From contig NZ_JAASAF010000001.1 in the NCBI RefSeq assembly GCF_012726195.1, positions 124,001 through 188,000 on the forward strand: 64,000 bases of DNA. Reading direction: 5' to 3'. The translations under genes were made by a program, and so were the position numbers. Within the stretch, counting starts at the first letter, position 1. Each line of letters opens with the position of its first letter. The notes beneath the pieces were generated by a model that did not search any database, was not told the origin of the DNA, and saw only the letters and a list, made by a program, of their open reading frames with translations. Positions 12,066-27,063 of this stretch are shown piece after piece. Source of the DNA: Rhodococcus sp. HNM0563 (GTDB lineage: Bacteria > Actinomycetota > Actinomycetes > Mycobacteriales > Mycobacteriaceae).

Positions 12066-12084
12066 TTAAGAAAGCCTTACCTTA
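12066..12084. promoter_or_regulatory. DtxR/IdeR-type iron box upstream of the GATase-like pair
   Basis: TTAAGAAAGCCTTACCTTA fits the 19-base actinobacterial iron-box consensus (TWAGGTWAGSCTWACCTWA) at 17 of 19 positions by hand alignment. It lies 54 bases before the start of the next gene, in the expected promoter zone. Under iron-replete conditions a DtxR/IdeR repressor would be expected to shut the operon. Confidence 0.65.
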
Positions 12085-12137
12085 TGTGTCGTTGCGTCAC
12101 CTTACGAGCGTCCTGCTCGACCTAACGGAAGAGTCCT

Positions 12138-12782
12138 GTGTCAGCACCTGAACGCATCGCTCCCGACCCAGGCGAATCCGCCTCCGCCGCAGTCGCTCCG
12201 GTCCTACGAATCACCATGGGAAGCGACACTCTCGCGGGGGGCGTCCACGGCGACCCCCGGCTCGGGGAGGTCGACCTCTACCGCCTCCCGAACACGGACC
12301 TCTCGTCGGTGCGGGGCCTGATCGTCGGTGGCGGTTCCGACCAGATCTTCCTCGAGCGGAACCGGGAACTGCTCACCCGGTTCGTGACCTCTGGTGGCCG
12401 AATCGCGGTCATGGGTCATGTGCTCACCGATTTCCTTCCGGGACTGGGTGTGTGGCGCAAACTGGCCTACACGGGACCGAAGGATCTGGCGATCACCCTC
12501 GGCGATCCGCATCCGGTCTGGGACGGGGTCGACCCGGTCGACCTGAGCACGCGCAAAGGCGTCACAGGCTTCTATGCGCGCGGCTATATCGACAAGCTCC
12601 CGGAAGATGCGATTGTCACCACCCGGATCGGACGCCACGCCCTCCCTCTCGACTACGTCTACCCACTGGGGGAGGGGCAGGTACTTGCGCACGGCGGCAA
12701 CGACCTCACCGGCTGGGCGAACGACCCCAACAGCTCCTCGAAACTGACCACGCAACTCATCGATTGGCTGGTGCAGCGGTGA
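12138..12782 (+). CDS. GATase/ThuA-like fold protein A of a coupled pair
   Basis: An uncharacterised 214-residue protein without signal peptide or membrane helix. The pattern GLIVGGGSDQIFLERNRELLTRFVTSGGRIAVMGH, alternating beta strands and helices with glycine turns, resembles class I glutamine-amidotransferase or ThuA-like folds. No Cys occurs at all, so it cannot be a classical glutaminase. The segment GGRIAVMGHVLTDFLPGLGVW aligns with GATVVALGESGAHNWLPGVQW of the next gene, so the two are distant paralogues. GTG start at 12138. It follows a DtxR/IdeR-like box and is coupled to the downstream gene; a role in metal or metallophore handling is inferred from regulation and neighbours only. 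Confidence 0.7.
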   Translation: MSAPERIAPDPGESASAAVAPVLRITMGSDTLAGGVHGDPRLGEVDLYRLPNTDLSSVRGLIVGGGSDQIFLERNRELLTRFVTSGGRIAVMGHVLTDFLPGLGVWRKLAYTGPKDLAITLGDPHPVWDGVDPVDLSTRKGVTGFYARGYIDKLPEDAIVTTRIGRHALPLDYVYPLGEGQVLAHGGNDLTGWANDPNSSSKLTTQLIDWLVQR

Positions 12783-13453
12783 CAACCATCGAACCTTTCG
12801 CTCGCACCGACCGCGCCTTCCGGAGTGGCAAGCGACTCGCAATCGTCCACGGCGGCACCTACTACCACCTGCAGACGATGAAGGACCCCGCTGTATTGGC
12901 ATACCAACCGGACTTCCTCTATCTCCCGGAACTCGACGACGGTGATCTGGACGGATACGACACCGTCATCATCGGTGAGCGTCTCCATCCGGAACTTGTC
13001 GCGAAGAACGCCGCGCAGTTCAGATCTGTGGCCGAGCGCGGCGCCACCGTTGTCGCCCTCGGTGAAAGCGGCGCCCACAACTGGCTTCCGGGTGTGCAGT
13101 GGGAACAGCGACCCACGAATTTCTGGTGGTGGCTCACGAAAGAGGATCCGATGATCCGCACACGCAGCCACGACCACGAATCGTGGCAGTACCTGACCTC
13201 GAAGTCGGTCATCTGGCACCACCACGGCATCTACAACACCGATGCCGACGTCGTGCCTTTGCTCGTGTCGGAAGAGCCCGACGCCGAAGGTAATCCGCAC
13301 GACGCAGGCATGATGCTGTACGAGGACACCGTCACCACCGCGGGCCGCATCATCGCGACCACACTTGATCCGATGTACCACCACGGCAGCAACTTTATGC
13401 CGGGCGCGACCCGATTCCTCTACGCGCTCCTGCGTTGGGTCGACAACACCTGA
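12779..13453 (+). CDS. GATase/ThuA-like fold protein B of a coupled pair
   Basis: A 224-residue protein whose GTG start overlaps the preceding stop (GTGA). It opens with KRLAIVHGGTYYHLQTM and contains YDTVIIGERLHPELV and GATVVALGESGAHNWLPG, a ThuA/GATase-like alternating fold. It lacks Cys but is rich in His and Trp: HDHESW, VIWHHHGIY and PMYHHGSNFMPGATRFL. These clusters could bind a metal or a polar ligand. I do not recognise a characterised family. Convergent with the small DUF4287 gene six bases beyond. Confidence 0.7.
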   Translation: MTTIEPFARTDRAFRSGKRLAIVHGGTYYHLQTMKDPAVLAYQPDFLYLPELDDGDLDGYDTVIIGERLHPELVAKNAAQFRSVAERGATVVALGESGAHNWLPGVQWEQRPTNFWWWLTKEDPMIRTRSHDHESWQYLTSKSVIWHHHGIYNTDADVVPLLVSEEPDAEGNPHDAGMMLYEDTVTTAGRIIATTLDPMYHHGSNFMPGATRFLYALLRWVDNT

Positions 13454-14305: not shown

Positions 14306-14812
14306 CTACCCGATGATGTCGTAGATCTCATCCGCGGGCGCCGCGAGCAGGCGATCGGCCATCTCCTGCTTGAGGACCGTGAGTCGTGCATTCTCGGTCT
14401 CGGTGCGATCCGCCTTGCGTCCGAGGCTGATGAATTCGTCGGTGACGAACCCTTCCCGGATCTCGAGGCGCACGGTGGTGCCGCGGTAGGTCAGCACGAA
14501 TACGTAGCGTTCGAGGGTCGAACCTCGGTCGGAGCGCTCGAGCGTCGAGTCGACAGCGAACCGTTCCTCCGTGACGGCGCGTGTCACCGCTTCGAACGTG
14601 TCGCGCACGCCTTGGCCGCGGTGCGCAGTGGCGACGGTGATCTCGCGACGTTCCGCTGGGGAGTCGGGGCTCAGAACCGGCAGGGCACGCTCGAGCACCT
14701 TGACGGCATGCGCGACGCCCCCGGGGAATCCTGGGCCGTGGTACTTCATGACATCGTCGACGGTGAAGTCGATTCTCATGCCGTCATCGACGAGTTGCAG
14801 TGGTGCAGACAT
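14306..14812 (-). CDS. Possible FmdE-like protein at the end of the ABC transporter operon
   Basis: A soluble 168-residue protein whose start lies inside the end of the upstream ATPase gene, with GGAGAAGAA before the ATG at 14812. An early segment KYHGPGFPGGVAHAVKVLERAL resembles the FmdE-family motif HGHxCPG...G, with the second His and the Cys replaced; the middle (ITVATAHRGQGVRDTF) and the strand-rich RYVFVLTYRGTTVRLEIREGF would fit the same fold. The resemblance is weak. Tight coupling to a Dpp/Opp-type importer suggests it processes or binds the imported ligand. I do not know of a characterised close homologue. Confidence 0.6.
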   Translation of the reverse strand: MSAPLQLVDDGMRIDFTVDDVMKYHGPGFPGGVAHAVKVLERALPVLSPDSPAERREITVATAHRGQGVRDTFEAVTRAVTEERFAVDSTLERSDRGSTLERYVFVLTYRGTTVRLEIREGFVTDEFISLGRKADRTETENARLTVLKQEMADRLLAAPADEIYDIIG

Positions 14813-15593
14813 TTCTTCTCCTGTAGGGCGGTTGGAGCGCGCCGGTCGCGGCGGCCACCAGGGACGCCGTGTACTGGTGCGAGGGGCTGGTGAGAATGTC
14901 GGTGGCACTTCCTATTTCGACGACCATCCCATCCTGCATGACCACGAAGGTGTCGCAACTCCGGGCCGCGAGTGCCAGGTCGTGGGTGATGTGGAGGACC
15001 GCGAGATCCTGGGTGCGCGCAAGTTCCGACATCAGATCGACGATCTCCACGCGAAGGGACGCGTCGAGTCCGCTGGTGGGTTCATCGGCGAGCAGGAGCC
15101 GGGGCCGGGTCACGAGTGCCCGCGCGAACGCGACGCGTTGTCGCTGCCCACCCGACAACTCGTGCGGGTAGCGATCGACGAAATCGGCAGCCGGTGCGAG
15201 CCGTACCGACGCGAGTGCATCCAGCACAGCGTCTCGCCGGCCGGCCTTGTCGCCGATGCGGTGGATCACCATCGGTTCCGCGACGATGTCGCCCACCCGC
15301 ATGCCGGGTGGGAGCGACGCATACGGGTCCTGGAACACCAGGTGCATACCACGGCGAAGCGCCCTGCTCGTGCGCCGTGGTGCGGACACGAGATCGACAC
15401 CGTCGAAGACGATGCTGCCGGACATCGCGGTCACGAGGCCTGCGATCGCGCGGGCCACCGTGGACTTCCCGGCACCCGAACCGCCCACCAGAGCAATGGA
15501 TTCCCCGGACTCGATCCGCAGACTCACGTCGGTGACCGCAGGCACCCCACCGAATACCACAGACAAGGAGTCGGCCTCCAGCAACGGGCTCAT
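14784..15593 (-). CDS. Opp/Dpp-type ABC transporter ATPase (DppF-like)
   Basis: A 269-residue ATP-binding subunit. Walker A GGSGAGKST is near residue 37, followed by VFQDPYASLPPGMRV, the ABC signature LSGGQRQRV, Walker B LLLADEPTSGLD, and the switch His in HITHDLALAA. The DPYASLPP region after the Q-loop is typical of the OppF/DppF branch. It overlaps the upstream fusion gene by four bases and the downstream gene by 29 bases. With the ATPase half of the fusion protein it would form the heterodimeric motor of the importer. Confidence 0.93.
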   Translation of the reverse strand: MSPLLEADSLSVVFGGVPAVTDVSLRIESGESIALVGGSGAGKSTVARAIAGLVTAMSGSIVFDGVDLVSAPRRTSRALRRGMHLVFQDPYASLPPGMRVGDIVAEPMVIHRIGDKAGRRDAVLDALASVRLAPAADFVDRYPHELSGGQRQRVAFARALVTRPRLLLADEPTSGLDASLRVEIVDLMSELARTQDLAVLHITHDLALAARSCDTFVVMQDGMVVEIGSATDILTSPSHQYTASLVAAATGALQPPYRRRNVCTTATRR

Positions 15594-17281
15594 CGGACCA
15601 CCTCTTCCCGGAGGAAATCGAGCCTTGGCGCGGACTCGACGAGAGTGCGGGTGTAGGAATGCTGCGGATCGGTGGAGATCTGCGAGGCCGTGCCGATCTC
15701 GACGAGATCGCCGTCCTTCATCACCGCGATACGATCGGCGATCCGTTCGATCACCGGCAGATTGTGCGTGACGATGAGCAGTGCGAGCGAATAACGCGTG
15801 CGCAGGTCGTCGAGCAGTGCCAGTACCTCCGCCTCACGGAGGACATCGAGGCCGCTGGTCGGTTCGTCGGCGATCACCACATCCGGCTCGTTGGCCAACG
15901 CCATCGCGATCACGACCCGCTGTCGCATACCGCCGGAGAGTTGGTGCGGATACGAATCGGCACGATCGGCTCCGAGCCCCACCTGGGTCAGGAGTTCGGC
16001 GGTTCGATCCCGAGCTTCACGTCGTGTGCACCTGCGGTGTGTACGAATGGCCTCGTCGAGCTGAGACCCGATGGTGCGCACGGGGTTCAGTGCGCTCAAA
16101 GCCTCCTGCGGGATGAGGGAGATCCGGTTCCCGCGTATTTCTCGGAACTCGTCTTTCGACAGTGTTGCGACATCTCGGCCGGACACGAGGATCCGTCCCG
16201 AGGTGATCTGTGCGGCGGAAGGCAGCAGTCCGATCGTGGCAGCGGCCACGGTGGACTTGCCGCTGCCCGACTCGCCGACGAGACCGACGAGTTCACCGGG
16301 CGCAACGGTGAAGGAGACATTCGTTGCGCCGCGGCCGTTCTCGCCGTACACCACCGTCAAATCGTCGACGATGAGGGGTGCGGTCGGATTCTCCTCGGTC
16401 ACAGGGATATCGACCGGGCGAGTCTTCCGGCGCAGACGTGACCGCGCACGGGTGAGAACCGGGCGTGACCGCTCTTCGATAGCGTTCCCGAGCAACGCGA
16501 ACCCGAGTACCGTGACCGCGATGGCGATGCCGGGTGGCAGGACCCACCACACCCACGCGTCGGTGAGAAACGCATTGCGTGCGTGTGCCATCGACAGCAT
16601 CGAACCCCAGCTCGCCGCCGAGATGTCGCCGAGTCCGAGGAATGCCAGTGACGCTTCGAGCAGGATCGCGGTCTTGACGGTGAGCACGAACTGCGGGATC
16701 ACGAGCGGGAAGATGGCCGGGAGAATGTGCCGGCGTAGCACATACAGCGGGCCGGCGCCCATTGCCCGTTCCGCCTGGATGTAGTCCCTCTCGCGCAGCG
16801 TGAGCACCTGCGACCGCAGTTCCCGGGCCAGGCCCGCCCACAGCACCGCCGAGATCACTGTGATCTGTGTGGTCAGGCCGGGGCCGGCGAAGACTCCGAT
16901 GACGATGGTCAGCGGCAGTACCGGCAACGACAGGATCACGTCGACGACGCGCATCAGGATTGCATCGGTGGCTCCGCGCAGGTATCCGGCGGCAATGCCC
17001 ACCACGGTGCCGATCGTCGTTGCGACGAGTGCGGCAACCACGCCGACGAACAGCGAGATCTGGGCGCCGTGGATGAGCATCGACAGCAGATCGTGTCCCA
17101 CGTCGTCCGCGCCGAGAAGGTGCTCGGCCGACGGCTTGGAGAACGGTCGTGTGACGCGCTCGGTCGGGTCGTACGGCGCGAGCCACGGTGCGGCGACCGC
17201 GCACAGCAGAGGGATGCCCAGAATGACGGTGCCCACGAGTGCGAGGCGCTGCGAGCGGGTTTTCGTGCCGAGAAGCGTCAT
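15590..17281 (-). CDS. Opp/Dpp-type permease-ATPase fusion (DppC-DppD)
   Basis: A single 563-residue polypeptide joining two usually separate subunits. Residues 1-290 are a DppC-like permease: an N-terminal helix, APYDPTERV, the ADDVGHDLLS motif, five further helices and the EAA-loop AERAMGAGPLYVLRRHILP. After a charged linker (about 285-305) comes an ATPase with Walker A GESGSGKST, LSGGMRQRV and VVIADEPTSGLD. Its start overlaps the first permease (ATGA). The fusion fixes permease to motor 1:1; similar DppC-DppD fusions occur in actinobacteria. The substrate is peptide-, nickel- or metallophore-like by family. Confidence 0.92.
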   Translation of the reverse strand: MTLLGTKTRSQRLALVGTVILGIPLLCAVAAPWLAPYDPTERVTRPFSKPSAEHLLGADDVGHDLLSMLIHGAQISLFVGVVAALVATTIGTVVGIAAGYLRGATDAILMRVVDVILSLPVLPLTIVIGVFAGPGLTTQITVISAVLWAGLARELRSQVLTLRERDYIQAERAMGAGPLYVLRRHILPAIFPLVIPQFVLTVKTAILLEASLAFLGLGDISAASWGSMLSMAHARNAFLTDAWVWWVLPPGIAIAVTVLGFALLGNAIEERSRPVLTRARSRLRRKTRPVDIPVTEENPTAPLIVDDLTVVYGENGRGATNVSFTVAPGELVGLVGESGSGKSTVAAATIGLLPSAAQITSGRILVSGRDVATLSKDEFREIRGNRISLIPQEALSALNPVRTIGSQLDEAIRTHRRCTRREARDRTAELLTQVGLGADRADSYPHQLSGGMRQRVVIAMALANEPDVVIADEPTSGLDVLREAEVLALLDDLRTRYSLALLIVTHNLPVIERIADRIAVMKDGDLVEIGTASQISTDPQHSYTRTLVESAPRLDFLREEVVR

Positions 17282-18288
17282 GCCGGTATCCCTTCCGGTG
17301 ATCGAGCGTCGTGCCGCTTCGCTGCGGTCCGGTCCTTGCGCACCCGCGGGTCCAGCAACGGATACGTCAGGTCCGCGAGCAGATTCGCCGCGATGATGCC
17401 GACGGTGGCGAGCAGGAACGCACCCTGAAGCAGCGGATAGTCACGTGCGGTGACAGCGTCGAAGGTGAGCTTGCCCAGACCGGGATAGGCGAAGACGGAC
17501 TCGACGACGACAGCTCCCGACAGCAGCACACCCACGGTGAGGGTGAGCGTGGTGTACACGGGCAGCAGAGCGTTGCGCAGGGCGTGTCCGACCGCGACAC
17601 GGAACTCGCCGAGTCCCTTCGCACGGGCGAGCCGGATGAACGGCTCGTCCAGCACGCCCACCATCGACGCACGGGTCATGAGGAAGAACCCGCCGATACC
17701 GGCGATGGTGAGCGTCGCGACGGGGAGAGCCATGCGGGACGCGACTTCGGCGAGCCATTCGAATCCGGTGGCATCGAATGAGGCCGCGCCGTACGACGGG
17801 AACCACCCGAGGGTCACCGAGAATACCGCGATGAGGATCATGCCGATCCAGAAACCGGGCATCGAGTCGATCGCGAGGACCGTGACGACGGTCCCGGTTT
17901 CCTTCGCGGAGCCACGGCGCCATGCCGCCCATGCGCCGAGCAGAGAGCCGATGACGAATGCGAGTAGCGTTCCGATGCCGACCAGTGCGATCGTCCACGG
18001 AAGCTTCTCCCACAGCACATCGAGAACGGGACGATTGTGCTGCACGGACATTCCGAGATCTCCGTGCACCAGACCGGACCAGAAGGAGACGTACTGTTCG
18101 AGGATCGGCCGGTCGAGCCCGTAGTCTGCGCGCATCTGCGCGATGTACTTCGGGTCGAGCGACTGCTGGTCGCCGCCGTAGAGATAGTTGACGGGATCAC
18201 CCGGTGCCAGGTGCGGTAGCGCGAAATTCAACGTCACCGCGGCCCACAGAACCAGGGCGTACTGCCCCGCCCGGCGCAGGACGGTCAT
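17278..18288 (-). CDS. Opp/Dpp-type ABC transporter permease (DppB-like)
   Basis: A 336-residue inner-membrane permease with six helices. Typical DppB features are the N-terminal helix followed by LAPGDPVNYL, the periplasmic domain with YGLDRPILEQYVSFWSGLVHGDLG, and the EAA loop LARAKGLGEFRVAVGHALRNALLP. The start at 18288 is chosen because it shares bases with the stop of the binding-protein frame (TGATG) and removes an Arg-rich shadow extension. This coupling implies the downstream genes were evolved to be translated after a full-length binding protein. Confidence 0.92.
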   Translation of the reverse strand: MTVLRRAGQYALVLWAAVTLNFALPHLAPGDPVNYLYGGDQQSLDPKYIAQMRADYGLDRPILEQYVSFWSGLVHGDLGMSVQHNRPVLDVLWEKLPWTIALVGIGTLLAFVIGSLLGAWAAWRRGSAKETGTVVTVLAIDSMPGFWIGMILIAVFSVTLGWFPSYGAASFDATGFEWLAEVASRMALPVATLTIAGIGGFFLMTRASMVGVLDEPFIRLARAKGLGEFRVAVGHALRNALLPVYTTLTLTVGVLLSGAVVVESVFAYPGLGKLTFDAVTARDYPLLQGAFLLATVGIIAANLLADLTYPLLDPRVRKDRTAAKRHDARSPEGIPA

Positions 18289-19964
18289 CAGTCCTGCGGC
18301 GCTTCCGCGTTCGCGGCGTCGACGACGTCGAAGGGCAGGAACGACCACTTGTGGACGATGCCGTAGCCGGGGGTCTCGACCCATCCGGCGAATCGGTCGG
18401 AGCGGAACGCCCAGGTCTCGTCCGGGTAGTACAGGGCGATGGCGGTGGGCTGGCGGTTGAACAGTTCCTGCATCTCCTGCATTGCTGCGATGCGCGACTC
18501 ATTGGTCTCGGTGACGCGCCACTTCTCTTACAGCGCATCGAATTCCGGGTAGGCGAGATCGGGATGCTTCCACAGGTTTCCCGAGCGGTGCGACATGATG
18601 AACTGTGTGGAGTCGGCCACCGCATGTGGGCTGTTCGTAGTGACGTAGAGGTCGAAGTTCTTCTTCGCAGAGGCGTCCGAGAGCGACCCGGCGTCGAGCG
18701 GGCTGACGACGACGTCGATACCGACCTCGGCGAAGTCCTCCGCAATCAATTCGGCGGCGCGGACCTGCGGCGCGTCACCACCGTTGACGATCAACGTGAA
18801 CGCCGCGGCCTCTCCGGCCGGGTTCTCGCGCGTACCGTCGCCGTCCACGTCCTTCCACCCGAGTGAGTCGAGCAGCGCGGTGGCCTGAGCCGGGTCGTAC
18901 GGGGTGTTGGCGTCCGGATCGGCGAACGGTGCATCCGGATGGACGTAGCCCTGGGTGCCGGGGCGGCCCTGACCGAGGCCGACGATGTCGAGCATCTGAT
19001 CGCGATCCACCGCGAAGTTCAGTGCGGCACGGAAGTCGGCCTGTGCGAAGGGTTCACGGGTGAAGTTGAGCTTCAGCTCGGGGTAGGTCAGCGGCGCCAC
19101 GGTGATGGTGCCGATGTCGTTCGATGCGGTGAACTGATCGACCAACTCCGGGGTGAGCGCGCGATCGACCGCGTCGACCTGGCCGGAGCTGAGAGCGGTG
19201 AATGCGGCCGAAGAATCGGCGATCACCGGCATGACCAGTTCGTCGACCGTCGGAGCACCGGGGAAGTAGTCGGCGTTGGCCTCGAACTTGTACCCGGTGG
19301 TGGGGCTGTAGTCGACAAGCTTGAACGGCCCGGTGCCGATCGGGAGGTCGGTCACCTCCTTCGCCTTCGAGGGGTCGACCTTCGACCAGATGTGCTCGGG
19401 GAGGACGGGAAGATCGGCGAGCGTGACCGTGCCGAGTTCGGGGCAAGCGTAGTCGCACACGAACCGCACCGAGGTCGGGCTCGTCGCTTCCACCGTCGAG
19501 ATCGACGGTGTGTCGTTGACGTGGTGTGTGAAACGTCCGGTCGGCGCGGCATGCATGTAGTGGAAGCTGAAAGCGACATCGTCGGCGGTGAACGCTTCGC
19601 CGTCGTGCCAGTTCACGTCGTCCCGCAGATCCACCTCCCAGGTCGTGGCGTCGACCTGTCGGACCTCGGTGGCCAGCCACGGCTGCGGTTCGGCGACGTA
19701 CGGCGAGGGGGAGAGCAACTTGTCGTAGACGAGCTCGGTCATCTGGTCGGACGCACCGGCGAAGATGTTGAGGGGTCCCGTGTCCTTCGCGACGGCGACT
19801 GTCAGGGACTCGGCTTCGGCCGGCCCGTTCGCGCTGGACGATGACGTGTCGGACGAGCCGCATGCGGCCGCGAGAAGCGCGGGCATCAGGATCAGTGCGG
19901 GTACGGCAGAGCGCGCTCCCGCCGATCGGGGCGTGGCGGGTCTACGCCGGTTACTACGAATCAC
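18288..19964 (-). pseudogene. SBP family 5 substrate-binding lipoprotein interrupted by one in-frame TAA
   Basis: The substrate-binding component of the ABC operon. GTG start at 19964; lipoprotein signal LMPALLAAACGSS puts the lipidated Cys near residue 35. The family-5 fold is clear (WLATEVRQVDATTWEVDLRDDVNWHDGEAFTADDVAFSFHYM in its first third). Codon 479, at 18530-18528, is TAA. The same frame then continues for 79 sense codons (EKWRVTETNESRIAAMQEMQ onward) to a TGA that overlaps the permease start. A single Tyr-to-stop change, FDAL-Y-EKW to FDAL-stop, explains this. The truncated product lacks the last 80 residues, which complete the closing lobe, so import is probably impaired unless there is readthrough or a sequencing error. 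Confidence 0.88.
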
Positions 19965-20009
19965 GAGGGGTCCACACTCTTTCTCGATGCCAAGATTGGC
20001 TTACCTAAG

Positions 20010-20028
20010 TTTGGTTAGCGTGACCTTA
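20010..20028. promoter_or_regulatory. DtxR/IdeR-type iron box upstream of the ABC operon
   Basis: TTTGGTTAGCGTGACCTTA matches the iron-box consensus at 16 of 19 positions by hand alignment. A second, weaker half-overlapping site (TTAGGTAAGCCAATC on the minus strand, about 19992-20007) lies next to it, giving a probable double operator 46 bases before the lipoprotein start. Repression by iron-loaded DtxR/IdeR is expected. Confidence 0.62.
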
Positions 20029-20050
20029 TATCACCGCTCGACAATGCAGA

Positions 20051-20095
20051 AAGGTGTGGTTCCGAACCCGGTATCCGGGCTCGGAACCACACCTT
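20051..20095. terminator. Strong hairpin, probable terminator stranded by the tnpB element
   Basis: A 15-base perfect stem (AAGGTGTGGTTCCGA with its complement) encloses, after one mismatch, a 5-base stem CCCGG/CCGGG and a three-base loop. No U tract on the plus side; reading leftward it is followed by TCTGCATTG. Before the tnpB element arrived it would have lain downstream of the leftward gene now at 22005, so it may be that gene's terminator, or a barrier protecting the iron promoter. Confidence 0.55.
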
Positions 20096-20127
20096 CGAGA
20101 AAGGGGTTACGAACTGCTCGACATTCT

Positions 20128-20144
20128 GTGAGCAAATGTGAACA
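20128..20144 (+). repeat. Left terminal repeat of the tnpB element
   Basis: GTGAGCAAATGTGAACA. It pairs with the complement of the right end with two mismatches. The final seven bases also pair with TGTTCAC at 20159-20165 to form a subterminal hairpin. Confidence 0.6.
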
Positions 20145-20476
20145 AACATGATCGAAGGTGTTCACAATGCGTGTGAAGCCGACCGAATGGGCGCACCCAC
20201 AGGCTACATGTCGGACCCCTCTGCGAGCATGATCATCGTGACGTACCGCAACCGTCCGGTCCGGCTCGGAGCCCTGCACCCAACGGCGGCCCTGCCGGCG
20301 CAGGGCTGCCGCAGGATCGTGGCGGGCGACCATGGCCAGCAACACGATCCGGTGCGGGACCTCATCGAGGATCCGACCTCGAGGTGTCCCCGCCTCTACC
20401 GCCACAGCCACGCGCGCACTCGTGCGATGCGGCCGGTCACCACCACGCATCACCGGCCTGTCGAGGCGAGATCCTG

Positions 20477-21955
20477 ATGGCCAGATTCGAGATCCCCGAC
20501 GGCTGGACCGCGCAGGCCTACACGTTCGCGCTCGACCCCACACCCACCCAGATACGAGCATTCCGCTCGCACGCCGGCGGGGCCCGTAAAGCGCACAACA
20601 CGATGCTCGCCGCCGTGAAAGCGGTCATGAACCAGCGGCAAGCCGAACGCACCTACGGCCTCGACGAGGACGAGTTGACACCCGCATTGGGGTGGTCACT
20701 GCCTGCGTTGCGCAAGCAGTGGAACGCCCGCAAACACGAGGTGGCGCCGTGGTGGGCCGAGAACTCCAAGGAGGCATACAACTCCGGGTTGGACGCGCTC
20801 GCTCGGGGATTGGACGCGTGGTCGAAGTCCCGCAAAGGTACGCGGGCCGGGAAAACCATCGGGTTCCCGAGATTCAAGACTGCGAAGTCCCGCAGGTCGG
20901 TGCGGTTCACCACCGGCACCATCCGTGTCGAGACCGACCGGCATCATGTCACCCTGCCGAGGTTGGGGCGGATCCACACCTGCGAATCGACCCGGAAACT
21001 GGCCCGCCGGATCGAGGCGGGCACCGCCCGGATCCTGTCTGCCACCTTGTCCGAGGATTCGGCGGGTCGGTGGCATGTGGCGTTTCAGGTTCTCGTGCAC
21101 CGTGCTGTCGCCGTGCCGGGGCATGTCGGTGAGGGTGAGTCGGTGGTCGGTGTCGACGTCGGCGTCAAAGCCGACTCCCTGATCGTTGCAACACCGGACG
21201 GACGCGAACTCGACCGGGTTCCGGCACCGAAGTCGCTGACCGCTGCCCAAGCCCGGCTGCGGGTATTGCAGCGCAGGGCCGCGCGGCAGCGTGGTCCGTA
21301 CGACCCGTCGACCAAGACGAAACGGCGGCCGTCGAAGCGGTGGGTGCGGCAGCAACGCCGGATCGGGCGCACCCATGCGCATGCGGCGGCGGTGCGACGC
21401 GACGTGGTGCACAAGCACACCACCGCCCTGGCCCAGCGGCATCGGGTGATCGTGGTGGAGACGTTGAATGCGTCGGGGATGCGTTCGGCAGGTGGTAGCC
21501 GGAAGAAGGGCCTGAACCTGGCCCTCGCGGACGCGGCGTTGGCGCAGATCCGCCGGATGCTCGACTACAAAACCCGCTGGTACGGCTCCACGTTGGTGGA
21601 AGCCGGCCGGTACTTTCCCTCCAGTAAATTGTGTTCGGGGTGTGGCAGGCGAAAATCAAACCTGACCCTCGCGGACCGAACGTATGTGTGTGACCACTGC
21701 GGCCTGACGATCGATCGTGATCATAATGCCGCGATCAACCTCGCCCGCCTCGGCGAGACCCACCGCACGGGTGCAACGGGGACCGGTACCGGGAGTAGTC
21801 CGGCCGCCACTGTTTCGGGTGGAGACGGACGTGGAGCCACGCGGGAGTCCGCGACTACGCCAGTGGTCAACGCTGCAGGCGAGGAAGCGTCAACCCGGCA
21901 CCAGCAGTTGCTGGGTGAGTCCGGGACTGTCTCATCGGAAGGTGAGGCTGCCTGA
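20477..21955 (+). CDS. tnpB: TnpB RNA-guided nuclease of a solo IS605/IS607-type element
   Basis: A 492-residue TnpB, the Cas12-related transposon nuclease guided by an RNA from the element's right end. The RuvC triad appears intact: Asp227 (GVDVG), Glu328 (VVETLN) and Asp415 (DRDHNAA). The zinc ribbon has C386-x2-C389 and C405-x2-C408. An N-terminal helical domain precedes a beta barrel. The last 65 residues form a low-complexity Gly/Thr/Ser/Glu tail that overlaps where the guide RNA scaffold is normally encoded. The ATG at 20477 (MARFEIPDGW) is used, and upstream in-frame sequence shows no homology. Confidence 0.9.
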   Translation: MARFEIPDGWTAQAYTFALDPTPTQIRAFRSHAGGARKAHNTMLAAVKAVMNQRQAERTYGLDEDELTPALGWSLPALRKQWNARKHEVAPWWAENSKEAYNSGLDALARGLDAWSKSRKGTRAGKTIGFPRFKTAKSRRSVRFTTGTIRVETDRHHVTLPRLGRIHTCESTRKLARRIEAGTARILSATLSEDSAGRWHVAFQVLVHRAVAVPGHVGEGESVVGVDVGVKADSLIVATPDGRELDRVPAPKSLTAAQARLRVLQRRAARQRGPYDPSTKTKRRPSKRWVRQQRRIGRTHAHAAAVRRDVVHKHTTALAQRHRVIVVETLNASGMRSAGGSRKKGLNLALADAALAQIRRMLDYKTRWYGSTLVEAGRYFPSSKLCSGCGRRKSNLTLADRTYVCDHCGLTIDRDHNAAINLARLGETHRTGATGTGTGSSPAATVSGGDGRGATRESATTPVVNAAGEEASTRHQQLLGESGTVSSEGEAA

Positions 21956-21974
21956 TGAAGAAGCAAACAGAGCG

Positions 21975-21991
21975 TGCTCACGTTTGCTCAC
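21975..21991 (-). repeat. Right terminal repeat of the tnpB element
   Basis: TGCTCACGTTTGCTCAC. It is the imperfect complement of the left end and part of a stem GCAAAC-a-GAGC / GCTC-ac-GTTTGC (21963-21987). The region between the tnpB stop and this end is where the 3' end of an omega RNA would be expected. Confidence 0.6.
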
Positions 21992-22004
21992 CAGAAGGCA
22001 ACGG

Positions 22005-22481
22005 CTAGAAGGAGTCGGGACGCCCCGGGCCGACGTTGCGGCTGTTGCGGGTGCGCAGGTTCATCACATAGTCCGACGGAGCGCCTGCGATCTCTGCGGC
22101 GTCGGCCATGACGCCCAGATATCGAGCGGACGGGAGCCCGCCTTCGTATCCGTCGACGACATACAGCCAGGCCAGGGTGGGGCCGTCGGCGGTGTCGATG
22201 CGGACGCGGATCTTGCGGTGGAAGCCGAGTTCGGCACCCTCCCAGCGGTCGAGACTGCGCTCGTCGTCCTCGGGGACGTCGTACAACACCACGAACACCT
22301 TGGAATCGGCGTCCTCCACAACGGTGGCCAGTGCGCCTTCCCAGCCGATATCGGCGCCCGCGAACGTCAGCCGCCACCCGTGCAGCCAGCCGGTGCCGGA
22401 CATCGGCGAGTGCGGGCAGCGCGTCAGCATCTGCTCCGGATGCATGTTGGACCCGTAGGCGGCGTAGATCGGCACGTCCAC
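22005..22481 (-). CDS. Gamma-glutamylcyclotransferase-like (AIG2/GGCT fold) protein
   Basis: A 158-residue cytoplasmic protein beginning IYAAYGSNMHPEQM, the glycine loop of the GGCT fold, with LHGWRLTFAG and VFVVLYDVPEDDERSLDRWEG; the Glu in DRWEG is a candidate catalytic acid. Members cyclise gamma-glutamyl amines or act on related amides; the physiological substrate is unknown. It corresponds by position to Rv3304 of M. tuberculosis. The tnpB element ends only about 14 bases beyond its stop, so its natural terminator was probably displaced. Confidence 0.82.
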   Translation of the reverse strand: MDVPIYAAYGSNMHPEQMLTRCPHSPMSGTGWLHGWRLTFAGADIGWEGALATVVEDADSKVFVVLYDVPEDDERSLDRWEGAELGFHRKIRVRIDTADGPTLAWLYVVDGYEGGLPSARYLGVMADAAEIAGAPSDYVMNLRTRNSRNVGPGRPDSF

Positions 22482-24592: not shown

Positions 24593-25403
24593 GACGCAGT
24601 GGATGAGTATCGGTGAGTTCGCGCGGGCGTGCCGGCTCACTGTGAAAGCCCTGCGTTACTACGACCGCGAGGGACTCCTGCCCCCGGGTCGAGTCGATCC
24701 GCACACCGGATACCGGTACTACACGCCCGCCCAGCTCGCGTCGGCGCTGAGGATCGGCCTCCTTCGTCGCGCCGGAGTTTCTGTCGCCGCGATCCGCAGC
24801 ATCGTCGACGATCCGGAGCGCGGGGCGGATGTGCTGGCCGTCGAGCGTGCCCGTATCGAGCACGAGGCCGAGCGGGCAATGCGTTCGCTCGCCCTCGTCG
24901 GGTCGCTCGAAGAGCTTGCCGCAATGGAACTTCCCGTTCGGCTGCGCCACATCGACGATCAGGTCGTACTGTGGCGCGAAGGCAGTGCTGAGGCGGATGA
25001 TCTCGACAGCACCGTCGCTGCGTCGATCGAAGGCCTCCTCGCGGATGCAGCTGCGCTCGGTGTCGATACGGAGGCGCCGGTGGTCGGTCGATATCCGGTA
25101 GTGCTCGAGGGGACCGTCGACTTCGGGGTGGGTATCGAAGTCGCTCCCGAATCCGGCGTCGAGGCACTTCTGATGCCCGGCGGTCTCTTCGCCGCCGTGG
25201 ACTTCACCGGACCGGCGGCGCTTCTGCCCGTTGCCTATCACGCTCTGTTCGCAGACCTCGCGGACCGCGGAGTCGATGCCGTGGGCCCCGTGCGCGAGTA
25301 CTACCTCACCGATCCGGCAGAGGTCGGTGCCGAGAACATGCTCACGAGGGTTGTGCACCAGGTGCCCGGACTCGATCCAAAACCGCCGACGCCACCGCAG
25401 TAA
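24582..25403 (+). CDS. MerR-family regulator with GyrI-like effector domain
   Basis: A 273-residue one-component regulator. The N-terminal winged helix-turn-helix reads MSIGEFARACRLTVKALRYYDREGLLPPGRVDPHTGYRYYTPAQ, followed by a coiled coil (about residues 75-110). The C-terminal part, from about residue 120, resembles the GyrI/BmrR-type multidrug-binding domain (FGVGIEVAPESGVEALLMPGGLFAAVDFTGPAALLPVAYHALF). It probably activates the VOC-MerR operon from the dyad in the promoter at 24105 upon binding an amphipathic ligand. Confidence 0.88.
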   Translation: MTDPTQWMSIGEFARACRLTVKALRYYDREGLLPPGRVDPHTGYRYYTPAQLASALRIGLLRRAGVSVAAIRSIVDDPERGADVLAVERARIEHEAERAMRSLALVGSLEELAAMELPVRLRHIDDQVVLWREGSAEADDLDSTVAASIEGLLADAAALGVDTEAPVVGRYPVVLEGTVDFGVGIEVAPESGVEALLMPGGLFAAVDFTGPAALLPVAYHALFADLADRGVDAVGPVREYYLTDPAEVGAENMLTRVVHQVPGLDPKPPTPPQ

Positions 25404-25473
25404 ATCTTATGGTGAGCATTACAGTAATAACGTAGTCTCGGTCTCGTCCAGACGAGGATGCCGGGAGATGCCA

Positions 25474-27063
25474 ATGTTTCGAGGAAGACGGTCATGGAGG
25501 CGGCGCAGTATCGGTGCGGCGGCCGCCGCGGTCTGTTCCGTCCTGCTGCTGAGTGCGTGCGGCGGGTCGGATTCCGGTCGCGCAGAAAATGATCCGGCGG
25601 AGGTTGGTGAACCGGTGGCGGGCGGGGTCGCGACCGTCATCCAGATGGGCGAGCCGCGCACTCTCGACCCCGCGGCCATGAGCAACACCTATGCGGGATC
25701 GTCCCTGCTGGGAAACGCGCTGTACGGCACATTGATGACCACCGACGTCGACACCCTCGAGATCGGATACGGCCTGGCCACCGATTTCTCGAGCGACGAC
25801 GGCGGCGCCACGATGCTGCTCACGCTCCGGCCCGACGTGACGTTCTCCGACGGAACACCGTTCGATGCCGGGGCGGTCAAGTTCAACTGGGATCGGTTGC
25901 GCGACCCCGCCACCGCGTCGGGATCGATCGGTGAAGCATCGCAGATCGCATCGACCGAGGTGCTCGACCCGACGACACTCCAGGTCACGTTGACCGCACC
26001 GAACCCGAACTACGCACACAGCGTGATCGTCAGTTCGATGAACTGGATCGCTTCGCCGGCGGCACTGCAACAGGGCGCGGCAGCATTCGACGAGAACCCG
26101 ATCGGTGCAGGTCCTTTCACGCTCGCAACGTGGTCCCGGCAGAACGTCATCGAGCTCGAGAAGAACCCGCGGTATTGGGACGCGCCCCGCCCTTACCTGG
26201 ACGGCCTCACGATCCGCACGTCCGCCGACACCACACAACGACTCAATTCGATCACCACCGGCGGCGCCGATCTCGCCTCGGACAGCAATTGGAACACCCT
26301 CGCCAAAGCCGAGAGCGCCGGAACGGCCGTCGAGGTCGTGCCGATGGGCGGTGGGCAGTATCTGGGTATGAACAACCGCCGCGCACCCTTCGACGATCCG
26401 CGTGCCCGACGGGCGGTGGCGCTCGCCGTGGACCTGGACGCGATGAACACGACCGTCTACAACGGCGAAGGTGTCGTTCCCGAGACCCTCTTCCTGGAAG
26501 AGTCTCCGTGGTACTCCGACATCCCGCTCGGTCGCCACGATGCAGACGCCGCACAGCAACTGTTCGATGAACTGGCGGCGGAAGGAAAGCCGGTGTCGTT
26601 CACATTCACCACCTTCCCGACCGTGGAGAACAAAGCGGTCGCGGAGACCGCGCAGGCACAGCTGAGAGCATTCGACAACGTCGACGTCGAGGTCGAGGTC
26701 CTCGATTTCCCCGCAGCCTTCGCGCGATTCGGTACGCGCGACTTCGACATGATGGTCCACGGGGTGACCATTCAGGACCCCGATCACTCGCTCTGGTCGA
26801 GTTTTCACTCGACGTCGAAGGGGAACATCGTGGGAATCGACGATCCCGACCTCGATGCGGCGCTCGATGCCGGTCGTGTCGGCACGACCGTCGAGGAGCG
26901 TGCCGCCGCGTACGAGGTCGTGCAGCAGCGCTTGGCGGAGCTGACCCCAGGCGCGTGGTACGTCCGGCCGGCGCCGGCGGTGCTCATCGGCGACCAGGTG
27001 CACGGGATCCGCCTCTCCGGTCTCGGTGCGCCGATTCCCGACGGCATGTGGGTCACCGGGTAG
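25474..27063 (+). CDS. Orphan SBP family 5 (peptide/nickel-type) substrate-binding lipoprotein
   Basis: A 529-residue extracytoplasmic binding protein. A twin-Arg-rich start (RGRRSWRRRS) and hydrophobic segment lead to the lipobox LLLSACGG. Family motifs include GEPRTLDPAAMSNTYAGSSLLGNALYGTL, LRPDVTFSDGTPFDAGAVKFNWDRLRDP and DDPRARRAVALAVDLDAM. The ATG at 25474 has GGGAG six bases before it; ATG 25468 is also possible. No permease or ATPase gene adjoins it, so it must use a transporter encoded elsewhere. Convergent with glpK with four bases between stops. The ligand is unknown; the intact protein could in principle serve the operon at 14-20 kb, but they are only distant relatives. Confidence 0.88.
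   Translation: MFRGRRSWRRRSIGAAAAAVCSVLLLSACGGSDSGRAENDPAEVGEPVAGGVATVIQMGEPRTLDPAAMSNTYAGSSLLGNALYGTLMTTDVDTLEIGYGLATDFSSDDGGATMLLTLRPDVTFSDGTPFDAGAVKFNWDRLRDPATASGSIGEASQIASTEVLDPTTLQVTLTAPNPNYAHSVIVSSMNWIASPAALQQGAAAFDENPIGAGPFTLATWSRQNVIELEKNPRYWDAPRPYLDGLTIRTSADTTQRLNSITTGGADLASDSNWNTLAKAESAGTAVEVVPMGGGQYLGMNNRRAPFDDPRARRAVALAVDLDAMNTTVYNGEGVVPETLFLEESPWYSDIPLGRHDADAAQQLFDELAAEGKPVSFTFTTFPTVENKAVAETAQAQLRAFDNVDVEVEVLDFPAAFARFGTRDFDMMVHGVTIQDPDHSLWSSFHSTSKGNIVGIDDPDLDAALDAGRVGTTVEERAAAYEVVQQRLAELTPGAWYVRPAPAVLIGDQVHGIRLSGLGAPIPDGMWVTG

Follow-up and report, generated by a model that had tools for sequence, protein, structure and literature searches.

An in-frame TAA interrupts the gene for a family-5 solute-binding protein that, judged from its sequence, heads an importer operon in the window, the whole 64,000-nucleotide stretch of Rhodococcus DNA analyzed here. 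The interruption is probably a recent nonsense mutation in this strain or species, which would disable an accessory importer by inactivating its substrate-capturing, putative lipoprotein. The event appears to be of an ordinary kind, and nothing points to a special recoding mechanism. The locus offers a clean snapshot of a gene at or just after its first lesion. Its main use is for annotation, where the importer is better labeled as probably inactive, or as in need of resequencing, than listed among working systems.

The lipoprotein frame runs on the minus strand from a GTG start at 19964 to 18288 and comprises 559 codons (558 and a final TGA), with stops at codons 479 and 559 and none elsewhere. 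The internal stop, TAA at 18530-18528, separates an upstream part of 478 codons (18531..19964) from an orphaned C-terminal part (18288..18527) of 79 sense codons followed by TGA at 18290-18288. A random sequence of equal base composition is expected to contain ∼12.5 stops per 558 codons, with a probability of 5e-5 of finding one or fewer. Third-position GC is 0.90 downstream of the TAA and 0.85 across the entire frame. The final base of the TGA, at 18288, is also the first base of the permease ATG (TGATG), an overlap also present in the two nearest relatives. The preliminary description had presented the TAA as the only internal stop of a binding-protein frame whose terminal TGA overlaps the permease start, and the stop count across the frame and the one shared base bear out both points.

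The 478-residue upstream part matches SBP_bac_5 (PF00496) with an E value of 1.3e-76 and 258.6 bits against a cut-off of 32.4, spanning profile positions 1 to 358 of 368. A lipobox-like AAAC, read by eye, ends at residue 35 after a hydrophobic stretch, and AAC occupies this putative lipobox position in all seven relatives of one alignment. Ten NCBIfam families were matched by the binding protein, none of them at its cut-off. Identities as the NikA equivalog (TIGR02294, 144.5 bits with 393 required) and as staphylopine CntA (NF047575, 89.5 bits with 800 required) were rejected for missing these cut-offs. NikA, CntA, and the oligopeptide-binding proteins share the SBP_bac_5 family and the operon type with the Rhodococcus importer but differ in that the Rhodococcus lipoprotein does not reach their NCBIfam cut-offs. 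The genome holds 17 matches to PF00496 including the broken gene, two of which are pieces of one split gene. This second family-5 gene is divided between two frames (locus L129, 2562-4143; G000:C33, about 145561-147142) and adjoins an intact tandem paralogue (L129, 4185-5747). Another family-5 binding-protein frame lies in the window itself at 25231-27063 on the plus strand, ∼5 kb from the broken one.

The codon at the position of the TAA was compared in 21 distinct orthologues, made up of the genus matches (E ≤ 1e-100), the family and order matches (E ≤ 1e-120), and the seven closest of a set of 44 loci; the remaining 37 of the 44, with 22 to 32% identity, were left out of the codon count. 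All 21 have a sense codon there, and 18 encode Tyr, 2 Phe, and 1 Ile, which supports the earlier proposal that a Tyr codon was altered at a single base. Every orthologue runs on to the full C terminus, with HKWS near the end in 19 and QKWS in 2 as read from the alignment. Orthologues that end naturally at the TAA position had been named beforehand as a finding that would speak against the proposal; none of the 21 ends there, and a natural shorter form was rejected on this ground. By binding-protein sequence, Rhodococcus sp. SMB37 is the nearest relative, with 93% identity, followed by Rhodococcus sp. JCM 9791 with 88%. At E ≤ 1e-100, the importer is carried by 8 of the 18 genus genomes, and by 20 of 401 family-sample and 8 of 397 order-sample genomes at E ≤ 1e-120, the own genome being counted in each case. 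Plasmid copies were also sought, and in no record did a single place span 80% of the query. The patchy distribution across the genus indicates that loss of the importer is tolerable.

The 79 residues behind the TAA match the C termini of eight distinct full-length orthologues (14 loci) with 65 to 96% identity, so that they still read as a binding-protein C terminus, as first described. With this short query, no match to more distant loci was obtained at an E value of 1e-5. Searched by itself, the piece reaches neither a Pfam nor an NCBIfam family at E 0.001, and solved chains gave nothing convincing; its identity therefore comes from the orthologue matches, not from family profiles. No spare copy of the piece is found in the genome at E 0.01, the sole match being the piece itself. 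A profile of 14 relatives aligns almost over its full length with AppA (1xoc, to residue 519 of 520) and with the family-5 protein 8efz (to residue 492 of 497). Counted by eye, the TAA falls at about residue 454 of 1xoc and about residue 427 of 8efz. Most of the lost residues pair with the last ∼65 residues of these two structures, and the final ∼15 lie beyond the aligned profile.

These observations suggest how the mutation would act. Translation would stop at codon 479 and yield a product without the conserved last 79 residues. Since the lost part mostly aligns with the C terminus of solved relatives, the shortened lipoprotein would be expected to misfold or to be unable to retain its substrate, and destruction of the fold is, on the alignments, the most likely consequence. 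The ribosome would also halt 239 bases short of the permease start that overlaps the TGA; with coupling lost, permease synthesis may fall. Against inactivation stands the nearly complete Pfam core of the truncated protein, which might retain weak binding.

The operon partners of the lipoprotein gene follow on the same strand. The importer permease (17278..18288; BPD_transp_1, E value of 6.3e-36) is succeeded by a permease fused to an ATP-binding domain in one frame of 563 amino acids (15590..17281; BPD_transp_1 and ABC_tran) and by a second ATP-binding subunit (14784..15593; ABC_tran, E value of 6.3e-33). The last gene, at 14306..14806, encodes a conserved operon partner with a weak resemblance to FmdE (PF02663, E value of 0.013, 16.0 bits, under the cut-off of 22.9 bits). 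A homologue of this partner is located downstream of the importer in six of seven relatives; the seventh stretch stops at a contig end. No description of an importer operon with an FmdE-like partner, an arrangement present in several genera, was found in the open-licence literature. All four partner genes are open, with dN/dS values against SMB37 of 0.082, 0.145, 0.136 (over 242 of 269 residues), and 0.135 in the order given. Against JCM 9791, whose genome is rated 75% complete, the values are 0.071, 0.119, 0.244, and 0.106, the second and third coming from partial alignments of 497 columns for the fused permease-ATPase and 163 columns for the second ATPase.

The broken gene itself gives a similar picture. 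Its dN/dS against SMB37 is 0.077 before and 0.086 after the TAA, and against JCM 9791 it is 0.103 before and 0.091 after, values that indicate continuing purifying selection on the coding sequence before as well as behind the stop. With JCM 9791 as the outgroup, the region behind the stop shows two amino-acid and four silent changes in the lineage of the window, compared to one and three in that of SMB37. No clear trace of relaxed selection emerges from the dN/dS comparisons of the broken gene or of its partners. Constraint on both sides of the TAA, together with open partner genes, means that the stop is very young or that the base is wrong. The lower synonymous divergence from SMB37 after the TAA (0.193, compared to 0.378 before it) was taken as chance (Fisher P value of 0.069). 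Higher dN/dS values after than before the TAA were obtained with zopfii (0.219 versus 0.130) and Tomitella (0.148 versus 0.090). A comparison of SMB37 with zopfii gives the same rise behind the stop position (0.251 versus 0.133); the elevation is therefore not special to the window and was dismissed as a signal of its own.

The preliminary description left three options: a recent loss, a readthrough mechanism, and a wrong base. Readthrough at a useful rate, with full-length lipoprotein made at a reduced level, would account for the coding constraint that persists after the TAA, and PMC7918605 claims such stops to be widespread, with dN/dS below 1. The youth of the stop explains the constraint equally well, however, and the same study finds in-frame stops to be short-lived. 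No tRNA with a tta, cta, or tca anticodon was detected by ARAGORN in loci covering all 53 Rfam tRNA matches, and the TAA is shared by none of the 21 relatives compared. The 101-base stretch beginning ten bases before the TAA has a folding energy of −23.9 kcal/mol, which is less stable than the average of its shuffles at −28.35 (z of 1.22). Of the 200 shuffles, 187 equal or exceed it in stability, leaving no stimulatory RNA structure at the TAA. TAA is a real but rare stop in this genome, serving as the normal end of 4 of 128 conserved genes; together with the missing suppressor tRNA, this excludes a recoded genetic code, and the rarity makes a chance mutation fit better than a designed end. 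With neither a suppressor tRNA nor a conserved stop nor a stimulatory RNA structure found, dedicated readthrough is unsupported, and readthrough at a useful rate is highly improbable. Slighter still is the chance that the TAA acts as a reversible, leaky dimmer, with low readthrough keeping a little full-length importer under iron limitation; if true, the codon would tune the importer system rather than kill it. Equally faint is the prospect that the shortened lipoprotein still works, as a natural variant of the family. The retained profile positions speak for it, but the segment it lacks is present in all 21 orthologues and is mostly matched by the C terminus of the solved relatives.

A wrong base in the draft assembly, with the gene intact, is the most serious competitor of a recent loss, although less likely. 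The genome of 5.54 Mb is a draft in 53 contigs, another family-5 gene in it is split by an apparent frameshift, and an error would equally predict the absence of further decay in gene and operon. Under a recent nonsense mutation, this absence is explained by the youth of the event. Against an error, the site lies inside a contig of 805,762 bases, not at its end. The same contig was also scanned crudely against SMB37 over 400 kb, by means of mechanical open reading frames of at least 150 amino acids from SMB37; 221 frames were compared, and 48 rows showed an in-frame stop. Thirty-two of these were set aside as not coding-like, with fewer than 60% of their differences at third positions. Among the 16 remaining, the stop was judged by position to lie near the mechanical start in 8 and at the extreme end in 1. 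The last seven comprise the broken lipoprotein gene and six shadows (row 1141 among them) of frames open in both genomes. The closest call was row 819, where the rival frame, which reads by eye as a LysR-type regulator, is 94% conserved versus 92%; the rival frames of the broken lipoprotein are less conserved than the gene (78% versus 93%). The lipoprotein gene is thus the only mid-gene nonsense to survive the filters; errors of this type are therefore not plentiful in the stretch, which argues against a wrong base. The favored recent nonsense mutation looks like one more instance of the in-frame stops that PMC7918605 describes as widespread and short-lived in constrained bacterial genes. As there, a single nonsense codon stands in an otherwise constrained gene. 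That study kept stops common to at least two species, limiting artefacts, whereas the Rhodococcus stop comes from one genome only, so that an artefact is less well excluded here.

Upstream of the gene, a predicted DtxR/IdeR-like box (20010..20028, minus strand) is located 45 bases before the GTG. This candidate agrees with a DtxR/IdeR consensus at 15 of 19 positions and has the top score over all positions on both strands of the window, in support of the iron link suggested in the preliminary description. A second, weaker box-like stretch (19990..20008) matches 13 of 19 positions of the consensus on the plus strand and 12 on the minus strand. By the same consensus, the best score upstream of the orthologues is 14 to 17 of 19 in 19 of 21, with 11 and 12 in the other two (L073 and L075). 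The importer is probably under iron control and probably belongs to the peptide/nickel/metallophore type, and iron or a metallophore is a plausible cargo. In Corynebacterium diphtheriae, DIP2162-2164 are listed as iron- and DtxR-repressed in PMC13001254. According to the same paper, the nikA2 genes DIP2162-2165 encode a peptide/nickel-type binding protein and permeases, as in the Rhodococcus importer, but adjoin the metallophore synthase gene sidA, a counterpart of which was not seen among the window genes checked; the two systems are likened by gene type. Among siderophore clusters, the survey PMC13293324 gives Peripla_BP_2 as the main siderophore binder, with 6,023 genes compared to 221 for SBP_bac_5.

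Several further features surround the importer. At 12126-13453 on the plus strand, two adjacent frames (12126-12782 and another ending at 13453) match the halves of a protein of 440 to 470 amino acids with 29 to 36% identity. More distant relatives carry this protein as one fused frame inside the importer operon (L186, 14281-15603; L185, 7149-8489; L183, 4497-5909), and the two-frame layout recurs in SMB37 and L187. These layouts suggest a protein that some genera encode as a fusion and Rhodococcus as two pieces. None of the three fused proteins gave a convincing Pfam match, and the two tried against NCBIfam gave none there. Just upstream of the 12126 frame, positions 12066-12084 form a DtxR/IdeR-like site whose score, 14 of 19, is the second best in the window. 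On the other side, beside the importer promoter, a TnpB/OrfB-type IS605 transposase frame occupies 20384-21955 on the plus strand. The surrounding region, ∼20035-22014, cannot be aligned with the same place in SMB37 and JCM 9791, where TauD-like and IclR-like frames (named by eye) are found. A long, near-perfect inverted repeat, also seen by eye, lies at 20051-20095 between the importer and the transposase frame.
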